Below, piece by piece: positions 1,044 through 6,747 of a DNA stretch of 64,000 bases (position 1 is its first letter; each line of letters begins with the position of its first letter). The stretch spans positions 1 through 64,000 of the forward strand of contig CALFNG010000207.1 of NCBI GenBank assembly GCA_937902985.1. The letters run 5' to 3'. Origin of the DNA: an uncultured Myxococcales bacterium (lineage in GTDB: Bacteria > Myxococcota_A > Polyangia > Polyangiales > Polyangiaceae). The position numbers and the translations under genes are program-made. The notes beneath the pieces were generated by a model. That model saw nothing but the letters and a program-made list of their open reading frames with translations, had not been told where the DNA came from and did not search any database.

Positions 1044-1521
1044 GTGCGGATCTCGTGCCTTGCCGGGGCGACATCCTTGGTGCCGATCATCGCGATTCAG
1101 GCGCTCAGCGCCTGCGGCGGCGGAAGTGGAGCCGCTTCGGGCGACGGCGGTACGGAGAGCGGCGGCTCGGACGCCGGGACAACATCCGACGTCGGCACTG
1201 CCGCGCAGTCCAAGCGCATGGTCTGCGGGCAGCCTGGCGGATGCGTGTCTGGCCAGTCGTGCATCCCGGCGTGCCAGAGCGATTCCGACTGCGGCGGCGG
1301 CGACACCGTCTGCCGGTCGGGTCACTGCGTCGCCAAGCCGTGCCAGGTCGACTCCGACTGGCCCCTCGATCGACATCGACGACTTCGCGTGCTCGGGCCC
1401 GAGCGGCACCCGGGTCTGCACCCTCAAGGGGTGCGCGAGCGACTCGGACTGCCACGGCGGGTTCTGCGTGAACCGAACATGCTCGTCCCAGCAAGGTTTC
1501 TGCGCGACAAGCGCGGTCTGA
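1044..1521 (+). CDS. Cys-rich secreted lipoprotein interrupted by a single-base frameshift near 1360
   Basis: Signal/lipobox MRISCLAGATSLVPIIAIQALSACGGG; CxxxSDC repeats continue in the next frame (SIDIDDFACSGPSGTRVCTLKGCASDSDCHGGFCVNRTCSSQQGFCATSAV*). Confidence 0.6.
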
Positions 1522-1615: not shown

Positions 1616-3595
1616 ATGATCGACCTATCGGCTCGCGCGCTCGAACTCGCGGCGCGGTGGCGCGGAACCTTGCGCGATCGATCGGGGGACGGCTCATCGC
1701 TTGCGTCCGTCCTGTCGTGGATCCGCACGATCGCGCTCGAAGAAGACGTCCTCTATCTCGATACGCCGCGCTGGCCGGACGCGTCTCTTGCGGGAGCATG
1801 GCTCGGACGACGGCGCGGCTACTTTCGGTTTGGCATTCCGTCCCTGCCATCGGCGCGCCCGGAGCCGATCACGGATCCGGATGCTCGCTCGCGCGTTCGC
1901 TTCGTCGTTCGAGCAAGACCCTATCTCGCCCCGCGACCCACTCGCCGGGGACCGGAGGCGGTCGGCGACCTTCCGACGAGCGGACGCGGACCCGGATGGC
2001 GCTCGATCCTGGACCTGCGCGATCTCATCGTGATCGAGCGGGATGCTCCTCACGGAGGCGAACGTCCCCTGCGGCTTGGTCTCAGCGCCGAGGAAGCGGC
2101 GCGCGTCCTGGCGCAAGCGCGGAGGTCGGCGGAGCGCTTCATCGCCGGCACCGGGCCGGACGTGGTCGCGCTTCGCTCGATGGGGGATCCTCCGCGTCTC
2201 GCTCAGCGCAGCACCGTCGCCGTTGCCCTCTGGACGCGCGGCCGCCTGCGAGGGTCCGTCATCTCCTCTCCAGGTCCGGCCCTGCGAACGGTCGGCCAAG
2301 CGGCCATCTCGGCCTGCCAGGACGCCCGCTTTCCTCGCCTCTCGACGAACGATCTCACCGAGACGGTCTTCCAGGTCGCCTTTCTTCACGCCCCGCGCGT
2401 CCCGTTGTCTCGTCGCGAGATCGAGACCTGCAACGCGTACCCGGACAAGGCGCTGTTCGTCTCAGAGGGTACGCGCTCGGGCGCCTACATGCCCGAGGCT
2501 TTCAACGTGTTTCCGCGTCGGATGGTGTGCCTGCAGGCAGTCGCCGAGAGCGTGGCGCGGGACAAGGCGGGTCTTGCCTCGCTCGGTCCTAGCGCGCGCG
2601 TCGAAGTCAACGAGGTCACCGAAATCATCGAGTCGGCCGACCGAAGCCGCGCCCTCCGCCTCAATGGCCCGGTGACGTGCCGGGAAGAGACGCCCCTTCG
2701 CGAGCACGCTCGGACCGCGGGACAGGCGGCATGCGGGTGGCTGGCCGCGATTCAGGCAGAGGATGGGTCGCTTCCCCTCTTCGTGCGACCGAGCACGGGC
2801 AAAGGAGAGAACACCGACGTCGTGCGGTGCGCGATGACGGCCGAGGCCCTGGCTGCCTTCGGGGTGGCCGCCGGACTCGAGAGCGCCGTGGACGGCGCTC
2901 GCCGTGTGCTGGCGTGGCTCGATCGATCACGCCAAGGGTGGATCCCGAACCGCGCCGTGGCGCTTCCCACCGCGATCTACCGGGGCAAGGCCGCGGGTTG
3001 GCTCGGCGACGACACCGCGTTGAAGGCGGCGGCGCGGAGCGTCCTCGAGCTGCTCGACGGCCCCGATCCAGGACCTCTGGTCCTCGCGAATGCCGCGTCA
3101 TTCCTGGACCGTGCCTCGGCCCACCACGCTCCTGCGGCGCACAAGTGTGCGGCCCTGCGGCGCGAGCTCGCCGAGCGCTTCGCACGCGCCACGGCGAGCG
3201 AAACAACGGTGTCGCTGGCCGAGTGGGCGGAGCTTGCGGCCGCGTTCCCGACCGACTCGAATACTTCGCGCGAGGTCCGCGATTGGCTCCGAAGCTGGCA
3301 GCTTCCCTCGGGCGCTTTCCCGGAGACGACGACGTCCGACTTCGTCTACTCGCGCGGGACCGGCAAGGTGTTCGAGGTCCTTGCCCTTCGGCCGGCCGAG
3401 TCGCCGGGCGCGCTCGATCGGGCACTCGCCTGGCTCTTGTCGATGCAGTACCGGCCCAATTCGGCGTTCTTCGTCCCCTACGAGCATTGGGGCCGCGTCC
3501 TGGGCGGCCTGCGGCACGACTACTACGGACCCGATGCATGGATCGACGCCGCGGGACACTTCTTGCTCGGCCTCGCGAGGCTTCTGGGACGATGA
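1616..3595 (+). CDS. AMMECR1-like domain fused to a prenyltransferase/terpenoid-cyclase-like alpha/alpha-toroid domain
   Basis: N-terminal half: RLRGSVIS...AAISACQDARFPRLSTNDL...FQVAFLHAP; C-terminal half: repeated helical W/Q-G motifs (WLAAIQAEDGSLPLF, WLRSWQLPSGAFPETT, WLLSMQYRPNSAFF). Stop overlaps next start (ATGA). Confidence 0.6.
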   Translation: MIDLSARALELAARWRGTLRDRSGDGSSLASVLSWIRTIALEEDVLYLDTPRWPDASLAGAWLGRRRGYFRFGIPSLPSARPEPITDPDARSRVRFVVRARPYLAPRPTRRGPEAVGDLPTSGRGPGWRSILDLRDLIVIERDAPHGGERPLRLGLSAEEAARVLAQARRSAERFIAGTGPDVVALRSMGDPPRLAQRSTVAVALWTRGRLRGSVISSPGPALRTVGQAAISACQDARFPRLSTNDLTETVFQVAFLHAPRVPLSRREIETCNAYPDKALFVSEGTRSGAYMPEAFNVFPRRMVCLQAVAESVARDKAGLASLGPSARVEVNEVTEIIESADRSRALRLNGPVTCREETPLREHARTAGQAACGWLAAIQAEDGSLPLFVRPSTGKGENTDVVRCAMTAEALAAFGVAAGLESAVDGARRVLAWLDRSRQGWIPNRAVALPTAIYRGKAAGWLGDDTALKAAARSVLELLDGPDPGPLVLANAASFLDRASAHHAPAAHKCAALRRELAERFARATASETTVSLAEWAELAAAFPTDSNTSREVRDWLRSWQLPSGAFPETTTSDFVYSRGTGKVFEVLALRPAESPGALDRALAWLLSMQYRPNSAFFVPYEHWGRVLGGLRHDYYGPDAWIDAAGHFLLGLARLLGR

Positions 3596-5301
3596 CCGTC
3601 AGCGAGCGGATCATCGGGGGACCCGGGCACCGGACGATGCCGCTGCCCGTGCGCCCCGCCTACGGCCTGGCCGAGCTCCTGCCTCGGCGCGAAGACGGGC
3701 TCTCGTACCGCGTCCCGGGAGAGATGGGGCGCGAGCTCGCCGCGGCCTTCGAAGGCGCGTTCTCGCTCTTGACGCGTGCGCATGGCGCGCTCGAAGTCAA
3801 AGCGCCTTCGACGATCCTGACGCCGAGATGGCACGGCGTCGTCCATCATCTCGTTCGCCGCGGCCTGGCGCGGAGGCTCGTGCTCTCGCTGCCGCTGGAG
3901 AAAGGCCTGCCGCTCTACTACTTCGACATCAGCTCTCCCTTCCTGGCGCATCGAACGGACGCCGGGCAGCCGGCCGCGCCGCGCTTCAGCCGCGGGTTCT
4001 CCGAGGACTACGATCACGCCCTCGCCAAGGTCGTCGGCGAGTGCCTGGAGCGGACCACCCTCCTCTACTTCCGGATGGCGGATCTCGTGCGCGGCAGTCC
4101 GCGTTCGCTCCAGCACGCCGGCATGCGCTTCCTTCCGCCCGAGCAGCTCACCGTCTTCGCGCCATGGCAGATCGAGCTACGCCCCGAGCTGCGCTTTGAC
4201 GAGGACTCGATATTCGCATGGGTGCCGTGCACGTCGCTCCTCTCGTCGGAGACCGCGCTCGTCCCGGCCCAGCTCATTTACTGGACGTACCCAGTCGCGT
4301 TCGGCGACGCGCCGGAGCCTCTGTTGCGCGAGCTGAACACGAACGGAGCCGGAGGCTTTTACTCGATCGAGGGGGCGATCCTCTCGGGGCTGCTCGAGTG
4401 CGTCCAGCGCGACGGGTTCTTCCGGCACTGGTTGCGCCGAATGCCGCCGCCGCGGATCGATCCGGCGGGCATCCGTCAGGAACGCACGAAGCGACTCATC
4501 GCCGAGGGGCGCGACGCGGGCCTGGCGACGCTCTTCTTCGACATCACCTCCGAACTTGGAGTGCCGACGTGCCTCTGCGTCCTAGTGCGGCAGGACGATG
4601 AGCTGCCGCACATCACGATGGGCGCGAGCTGCCGTCTCGATGGCGAGACAGCGCTGCATGACGCGCTGCTCGAGGCCGCGAGCGTCCACCACGTCATGGC
4701 CCAAGAGCCTCAGCGGTTTCGCCTGTCCGACGACTACGAACCCTTCACCGATCCGACCCTCTCGACGATGCAGCGCCTCGCGTTCTGGGCGAACCCCGAA
4801 CACCGAGGGCACCTCGACGCCTTCCTGAACGGTGGCGCCGAATCCGTCTCCACGTTTTGCCGCGGCCTCGCGCCGCCGAAGGACGCCCGCTCGGGCTTGC
4901 GCCGCGTCGTCGACGTGCTGCGCCGCCACGGGCTCGATGCCTATTACTTCCAGGCCCAGCACCCAGTCCTCGACGAGCTCGGCTACGCGACCGCGCGCGT
5001 GGTCGTGCCGGGTCTCGTCCCGATGTACTGCGAAGAGCGGAACGCCCCGCTCGGCCTCCCGCGCCTTGGGCTGGGTGCGAGCCCCGGCGACTGGCCGCCC
5101 TGGCCGCACCCCTTCCGTGACCCGGATCGTCAGTTCAAAGCGGGCGCCTCCACCCATGGAGAATGGCTGGCGTCGGATCCCGCGTCCGGGAAGGTGACGG
5201 CTTCGACCACGGGACCGTGTGCATCGGCCCCCGAGTCGGGTGGGGGCGCGGGGGCTTCGACCATCGGGGAAGGATGGGCGTCGGAGCCGGCGTCGAGGTA
5301 G
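3592..5301 (+). CDS. YcaO-domain protein (RiPP cyclodehydratase/thioamidation-type ATPase)
   Basis: NTNGAGGFYSIEGAILSGLLECVQRDGFFRHWL matches the YcaO ATP-binding region; Pro-rich end PPWPHPF; start overlaps the upstream stop. Confidence 0.8.
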   Translation: MTVSERIIGGPGHRTMPLPVRPAYGLAELLPRREDGLSYRVPGEMGRELAAAFEGAFSLLTRAHGALEVKAPSTILTPRWHGVVHHLVRRGLARRLVLSLPLEKGLPLYYFDISSPFLAHRTDAGQPAAPRFSRGFSEDYDHALAKVVGECLERTTLLYFRMADLVRGSPRSLQHAGMRFLPPEQLTVFAPWQIELRPELRFDEDSIFAWVPCTSLLSSETALVPAQLIYWTYPVAFGDAPEPLLRELNTNGAGGFYSIEGAILSGLLECVQRDGFFRHWLRRMPPPRIDPAGIRQERTKRLIAEGRDAGLATLFFDITSELGVPTCLCVLVRQDDELPHITMGASCRLDGETALHDALLEAASVHHVMAQEPQRFRLSDDYEPFTDPTLSTMQRLAFWANPEHRGHLDAFLNGGAESVSTFCRGLAPPKDARSGLRRVVDVLRRHGLDAYYFQAQHPVLDELGYATARVVVPGLVPMYCEERNAPLGLPRLGLGASPGDWPPWPHPFRDPDRQFKAGASTHGEWLASDPASGKVTASTTGPCASAPESGGGAGASTIGEGWASEPASR

Positions 5302-5561
5302 GTCGCCGCCTCCACCATCGGGTTGGGGCTTCCGTCGCCCCCCGCCGCTTCGATCACAGCGCCGCCTTCCTGCGCCGCCTCGATGGCGAGCCCGTGATCG
5401 GCGGCCGCGTCGCTGGTGCCCTCGCCCGGACCGGTTTGCGTGCTGCCGCCGCAGTGGACGACGCCGGCGGTCATCAGGAGCGCGAGGCCGAGCTCACCGG
5501 CGCTGTTGGCGCTCTTGACGAGACGGTCGAGCAGGCGCTTGCGAAGGCGAACCGTGGGCAT
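5130..5561 (-). CDS. Small ORF with 18-aa C-terminal repeats; candidate multi-core RiPP precursor or repeat-tailed lipoprotein
   Basis: ATG with upstream GCAGGAG; 143 aa; repeats MVEAATYLDAGSDAHPSP / MVEAPAPPPDSGADAHGP / VVEAVTFPDAGSDASHSP / WVEAPALN*; possible lipobox LMTAGVVHC. Confidence 0.55.
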   Translation of the reverse strand: MPTVRLRKRLLDRLVKSANSAGELGLALLMTAGVVHCGGSTQTGPGEGTSDAAADHGLAIEAAQEGGAVIEAAGGDGSPNPMVEAATYLDAGSDAHPSPMVEAPAPPPDSGADAHGPVVEAVTFPDAGSDASHSPWVEAPALN

Positions 5562-5793: not shown

Positions 5794-6747
5794 TCAGGGC
5801 CCGCACCGGCCCGTTACGACGTGATCGCACCCCTGCCCGCACGTCAATGACGACGCACAACCGAGCTGCGGGTTGTGACACGCGGATCCGGCGCCCCCGT
5901 CGGGATAGGTACACGAATACAGATCCCAACCGGCCGGGCAGCAGGCGCCACCATCGACCGGAGCGACCGTCGTGCCGGAGTCCGTGCACGCGCCCTGATG
6001 GAGCAGTGGCGCCGGTGCATACCCGCTCGGCAGACCGTTGCAGACGATGTTGACCTCCGATCCGTCGCACGCGCATCCGGGCGAGGCCGCGTTGCAACCG
6101 AGCTGCGGGGCGACGAAGCAGGTCCCGGTCGCCGTGCAGGCGTCGGCAATCGGGAAGCCGCAGAGGCTTCCCATCGCGCAATCCGCGTCGGCGTTGCAGG
6201 TCGACCCGGCCATCCCTGCATCGGCGGCGGGGGCGCACTGGCACGTGTCGCAGCCGTGGCTGTCCTTGAGGATTCCGTTCGGACAGCTTGGGAGGCAGCC
6301 CAGCGCGGGGCACACCTGCGTCGAGCACGATCGAATCTGCCATCCGCAAGGGCCGTCCGGTGCCGTTACGCACACGGGGCCCGCCGTCGACCCATCGGGG
6401 CAGATGGAGGTCGGCGCGCCCGGCGCCGGCCCCGCGCACACGCACGACCCCGCGTCGTCGACGACGACCGGACACGCGGGGAAGTCCCATTCACACGAGC
6501 CGGTGGCGCTCCTGCTGCACATGGTTCGGCCGACGGCAGTCCCACCCGGACAGAGCTTCGCGTCCGATGGCGCTGCAAGGCCTGTGCAGTCCGGGGGTGC
6601 GCAGGCCGTTCCCGCATCGGAGGTGGGTGCCGGCGGGGACGCGATCTTCCCGCTGCATCCGTCACCGTCCGCGCCCGCCAGGAAGGGAAGCGTCAGGAAC
6701 AATGCGAACGTCCCCACGAATCGAAAGCGCGACGACAATGCCTTCAT
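5794..6747 (-). CDS. Secreted Cys-rich protein with an antistasin-like segment
   Basis: Signal MKALSSRFRFVGTFALFLTLPFLAGADGDGC; CPALGCLPSCPNGILKDSHGCDTCQC; GGAGGGG RBS before ATG. Confidence 0.7.
   Translation of the reverse strand: MKALSSRFRFVGTFALFLTLPFLAGADGDGCSGKIASPPAPTSDAGTACAPPDCTGLAAPSDAKLCPGGTAVGRTMCSRSATGSCEWDFPACPVVVDDAGSCVCAGPAPGAPTSICPDGSTAGPVCVTAPDGPCGWQIRSCSTQVCPALGCLPSCPNGILKDSHGCDTCQCAPAADAGMAGSTCNADADCAMGSLCGFPIADACTATGTCFVAPQLGCNAASPGCACDGSEVNIVCNGLPSGYAPAPLLHQGACTDSGTTVAPVDGGACCPAGWDLYSCTYPDGGAGSACHNPQLGCASSLTCGQGCDHVVTGRCGP

Follow-up and report, generated by a model that had tools for sequence, protein, structure and literature searches.

YcaO proteins have been described with partners of the E1-like, ThiF-like and TfuA-like groups (PMC7136475), and methanogens have a ycaO gene whose stop codon runs into the start of tfuA (PMC5589413). 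Standalone YcaOs acting without such partners also exist, for example in bottromycin biosynthesis (PMC7136475; PMC4603692). The stretch of DNA analysed here (the window, 64,000 nucleotides from an uncultured Myxococcales bacterium) carries a ycaO gene, B, preceded by a gene with an AMMECR1 domain, A, and followed by a convergent gene for a repeat protein, R. This arrangement raises the question of whether A is the partner of the YcaO, and whether R is its substrate, as a preliminary description of the three genes as a candidate RiPP locus had suggested.

Gene organisation of the locus

The ORF anatomy and the positions of A, B and R were as the preliminary description had placed them. The features considered are:

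1044..1521, plus strand: upstream of A, a Cys-rich, lipoprotein-like reading frame that breaks into two frames near 1350
1616..3595, plus strand: gene A, ORF of 659 aa
Residues 1-150 of A: N-terminus, unmatched
2183..2500, plus strand (residues 190-295 of A): divergent AMMECR1 domain (Pfam PF01871)
Residues about 355-659 of A: helical C-terminus, matching the AMMECR1 plus alpha/alpha-toroid protein family
3592..5301, plus strand: gene B, discrete SagD-like YcaO ORF, 569 aa as read
3592..5115, plus strand: conserved YcaO part of B, ending PWPHPF, from alignment with seven YcaOs
5116..5298, plus strand: C-terminal extension of B, 61 codons, not conserved, not coding-like, antisense to R
5130..5561, minus strand: gene R, convergent, 143 aa from ATG
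5794..6744, minus strand (as R): Cys-rich secreted or lipoprotein-like gene with DAG-rich linkers like those of R, from the ORF list

Gene B encodes a discrete YcaO

The identification of the second gene as a ycaO was confirmed by the Pfam YcaO model (PF02624), which matched B at 185.1 bits against a cut-off of 25.7 (E=2.7e-54) and places it in the YcaO superfamily. The NCBIfam SagD model (TIGR03604) also matched (E=2.2e-55), with a score of 188 that lies below its cut-off of 219. In the alignment with seven YcaOs, B retained the E-x-x-E-R and NG..G regions, and its C-terminal PxPxP is kept as PWPHP at residues 503-507. B therefore resembles the SagD-family (TOMM) YcaO cyclodehydratases in having a full-length, discrete (not fused) YcaO domain with a C-terminal PxPxP. 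It differs from them in its sub-threshold score and in carrying QRD where ERD was invariant in 34 distinct other myxobacterial YcaOs. We take the glutamate of ERD to bind metal or nucleotide in YcaOs, and the activity of B is uncertain because glutamine replaces this otherwise invariant residue.

The closest relatives of B share about 29-30% identity with it and are found in TOMM, nitroreductase/radical-SAM and TfuA-type contexts; none of its YcaO relatives within the family has A or R alongside. Judged by its sequence, B is an orphan, discrete, SagD-like YcaO.

Several other YcaO loci were observed in the course of these searches. The window's own genome holds a second YcaO fragment, TfuA-type by similarity, consisting of an N-terminal half at a contig end (L180:7070-7744). 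The nearest YcaO relative of B (L063:5207-14289) lies beside a nitroreductase, a B12-type radical SAM protein, 2OG/PhyH oxygenases and a 74-aa ORF, and this locus is possibly a RiPP cluster. In a related genome, a 118-aa ORF with SSACTSGC (L066:7700-8056) adjoins a SagD-type YcaO and looks like an azoline/thiopeptide-type precursor.

Gene A and the AMMECR1-toroid superfamily

The AMMECR1 assignment proposed for the N-terminal part of A was upheld by Pfam PF01871, which matched at 28.2 bits, over its 25-bit cut-off (E=1.6e-6). The proposed toroid C-terminus had no direct Pfam family match and was supported indirectly, by a profile of nine AMMECR1-toroid proteins. This profile matched A over both parts (hmmsearch, two domains, E=1.1e-9; hhalign, probability 94.8%, residues 155-657), and 0/200 shuffled sequences scored in the control. 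The alignment spans AMMECR1 and the C-terminal barrel, as in AMMECR1 / AmmeMemoRadiSam protein A (PF01871, TIGR04335) and the Myxococcota fusions, and places A among the AMMECR1-toroid fusions; unlike those fusions, A is divergent and has its own N-terminus. A profile of A and its relatives matched the AMMECR1-type structures 1vaj and 1zq7 at about 1e-15. AlphaFold performed poorly without an alignment (mean pLDDT 39 and 50), and in these low-confidence single-sequence models the C-terminus of A was mostly helical; Foldseek with these models returned nothing at E <= 0.001. A LanC or prenyltransferase identity for the toroid was unsupported, the weak matches favouring glycan-active barrels.

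A search for AMMECR1 across 379 Myxococcota genomes detected, besides ordinary AMMECR1 genes, divergent AMMECR1 copies within long open frames. In their translations a helical-barrel-like region comes after AMMECR1, and several of them begin with a lipoprotein-type N-terminus. An alignment-based profile search gave matches in 237 of the 379 genomes, among them a further one in the genome of the window itself; some of these matches are plain AMMECR1 genes or barrel-only proteins. Plain protein searches with A, covering 108 genomes of the family and 379 of the phylum, recovered only A itself and one weak AMMECR1 match. No function is assigned to the superfamily by the libraries searched. These profile comparisons indicate that A is a member of a widespread Myxococcota AMMECR1 plus alpha/alpha-toroid superfamily without a library-assigned function.

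A neighbourhood check of A's relatives showed no YcaO in any of 30 sampled AMMECR1-toroid loci, which span 3.7-16 kb and are in part truncated at contig ends. Neighbours conserved across AMMECR1-toroid genes were clade-specific only. Since relatives of A are common and the 30 examined have no YcaO nearby, A-type proteins are not dedicated YcaO partners; coupling to a YcaO is the unusual feature of A within a superfamily that is itself widespread.

Among the AMMECR1-toroid proteins of Myxococcota loci L119-L128 and L158-L177, one clade adjoins an HtrA-like protease. A 1051-aa protein of the window's own genome (L158:6806-9961) matches the AMMECR1-toroid profile and has no Pfam AMMECR1 match.

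The A-B pair and its surroundings

The stop codon of A and the start codon of B share an ATGA overlap, in agreement with the translational coupling proposed for them. As a two-gene unit whose stop and start codons overlap, A-B is reminiscent of the YcaO-TfuA thioamidation pairs (thioviridamide type, McrA), from which it differs in having an AMMECR1-toroid partner and no TfuA, and in its order, here partner and then YcaO. A second A-B pair was not found in family, phylum or species-wide searches, and scanning 85,462 species for patterns of A and of B, a method that reaches close relatives only, gave no relative. A and B are thus seen together at this one locus in the data.

The reported absence of the usual partners held for the neighbouring genes examined. 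No E1-like or ThiF-like protein with a leader-binding region lies beside the YcaO: neither A nor the N-terminus of B had an E1-like/ThiF-like match in Pfam or NCBIfam, and the genes sampled to 28.5 kb had none in Pfam. No TfuA match was present among the neighbours examined. The genes sampled from 7.4 to 28.5 kb encode a protein kinase, a methyltransferase, a chromate transporter, a sigma factor, arginine decarboxylase, MeaB, methylmalonyl-CoA mutase genes, an MFS transporter, a glyoxalase and a pseudouridine synthase, with no RiPP protease, dehydrogenase, ABC exporter or leader-binding gene among them. A lies 1.6 kb from the first base of the contig, which is also that of the window, in an assembly of 563 contigs, and partners may sit on other contigs. 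A comparison with PHROGs gave no matches. The locus is thus unlike SagD-family (TOMM) loci, with no E1-like/ThiF-like partner, dehydrogenase or obvious precursor among the neighbours examined. In having no canonical partner B is like the standalone YcaO of bottromycin biosynthesis, whereas bottromycin clusters combine other tailoring genes with a short precursor (PMC7136475) and here there is a coupled AMMECR1-toroid gene.

The 3' end of the ycaO ORF overlaps gene R

The last 172 nt of the ycaO ORF lie antisense to gene R, an overlap that the preliminary description had missed. As R is antisense to this end, identical DNA repeats show up in the tail of ycaO. Neither frame is coding by codon score in the overlap (ycaO tail, -7.7 bits over the last 57 codons; R, -4.2 bits). 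Most of the aligned YcaO relatives stop one residue past PHPF or its equivalent, and in B a TGA in another frame (5118-5120) directly follows PHPF. The stop codon of R (5130-5132) lies 9 bp from this likely ycaO end. The simplest reading would be two genes meeting tail to tail, with an indel in the draft assembly or in the gene, in which case the DNA repeats would belong to R and not to ycaO; the TGA may nevertheless be a chance occurrence. Upstream of A, the frame switch near 1350 is visible in the codon profile and is a second sign of indels at this contig end.

The repeats described in R proved highly significant. They comprise three 18-aa VEA repeats and a partial fourth (PMVEAATYLDAGSDAHPS / PMVEAPAPPPDSGADAHG / PVVEAVTFPDAGSDASHS / PWVEAPALN), with a self-repeat score of 89 against a shuffle mean of 27.6 (sd 5.6), reached in 0/2000 shuffles, and at the DNA level in 0/300 codon shuffles. 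Outside the overlap R has gene-like codon usage (+37 bits, GC3 0.87). R may be a lipoprotein, as the preliminary description cautioned. Its tail is D/A/G/S/P-rich and its N-terminus signal-like (LGLALLMTAGVVHCGG), with a charged n-region and hydrophobic LGLALLMTAGVV; the VHC that follows is an atypical lipobox, as His at -1 departs from [LVI][ASTVI][GAS]C (2/68 in a crude scan). The D/A/G/S richness of R resembles that of the Cys-rich, DAG-rich secreted or lipoprotein-like ORFs flanking A-B, and the 5794..6744 gene carries an Antistasin-type motif (Pfam, E=7.6e-6).

R had no family match, and no homologue beyond low-complexity matches in its own genome or in 106 relatives. The search of these 106 family genomes gave many matches at E<=1, and the seven best-scoring, on inspection, were low-complexity or out-of-frame and had no VEA repeat architecture. 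No further VEA-repeat ORF was present in about 1 Mb of fetched loci. With its own strand, lack of homologues, gene-like codon usage and composition like that of the neighbouring secreted proteins, R is most likely a separate, convergently transcribed gene of secreted or lipoprotein type, its end meeting that of ycaO.

Discussion

At this locus an orphan YcaO is translationally coupled to an AMMECR1-toroid protein, with none of the usual partners among the neighbours examined. We consider it the best explanation, at a probability of about 0.5, that the YcaO and its non-canonical partner act together on a peptide or protein, and that R is an unrelated convergent secreted protein. A and B would form a two-gene operon; by analogy with other YcaOs, B would spend ATP phosphorylating, and hence activating, a backbone amide of the substrate, and A would stand in for the usual partner by binding the substrate or performing a second step. 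This joint action, the amide activation and the independence of R are most likely on the present evidence, because B keeps the YcaO domain match and its E-x-x-E-R, NG...G and PxPxP elements, the ATGA overlap couples it to A, the usual partners were not found nearby and standalone YcaOs exist. The single A-B pair, the 30 YcaO-free loci of A's relatives, the QRD of B and the chance that partner proteins lie on other contigs are points against it and leave it uncertain.

The same QRD could instead mean that B is catalytically lost and that the locus is a relic or pseudoenzyme pair. The extension of the B frame past its conserved end into antisense sequence is consistent with such decay, as is A, which lacks motifs conserved in its relatives, such as YPGE, and is missing from two congeners and the other relatives searched. 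However, A and B are both long open frames that look like coding sequence over most of their extent, B has kept other conserved YcaO residues, and the 3' oddity may be an indel of the draft assembly. We consider decay unlikely.

If A and B were co-transcribed and acted separately, A would be an AMMECR1-toroid enzyme or binding protein with a glycan-hydrolase-like barrel, and B a standalone YcaO, of which examples are known (PMC7136475). A's relatives are widespread without YcaO, several as lipoproteins, and their barrels show weak similarity to the glycosidase models GH127, GH88 and GH76. Against independent action, ATGA coupling often links functionally related genes, and A itself lacks a lipoprotein-type N-terminus and has diverged from those members of the superfamily that are lipoproteins. 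We regard this arrangement as quite unlikely.

The RiPP locus of the preliminary description would have R as a multi-core precursor, with a leader followed by VEA repeats modified by B, and A as the protein that binds the leader or carries out a second tailoring step. Multi-core precursors are repeat proteins, and R is a real-looking gene with significant repeats that adjoins ycaO. However, R lies on the opposite strand behind a signal-like N-terminus, shares its D/A/G/S richness with neighbouring secreted proteins, and has no family match and no homologue co-occurring with a YcaO. Its repeats, rich in V/E/A/D/P, contain few Ser/Thr and no Cys, leaving few heterocyclisable residues per repeat, and do not resemble the TOMM arrangement of a short precursor with a leader and a Cys/Ser/Thr-rich core; no protease, dehydrogenase, ABC exporter or other maturation gene was found nearby. 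A role for R as precursor of B is possible but unsupported, and such a locus is decidedly improbable. It is very improbable that AMMECR1-toroid proteins represent a new YcaO partner class and that this pair modifies the backbone of a repeat protein, for example R, in a way not yet described.

Under the preferred reading, in which A and B act together and R stands apart, an AMMECR1-toroid protein is a YcaO partner not previously reported, no paper in the library searched having joined YcaO with AMMECR1. A coupled AMMECR1-toroid gene would add a new kind to the few described YcaO partners, and the A-B pair would offer a first way into the biochemistry of the AMMECR1 domain.
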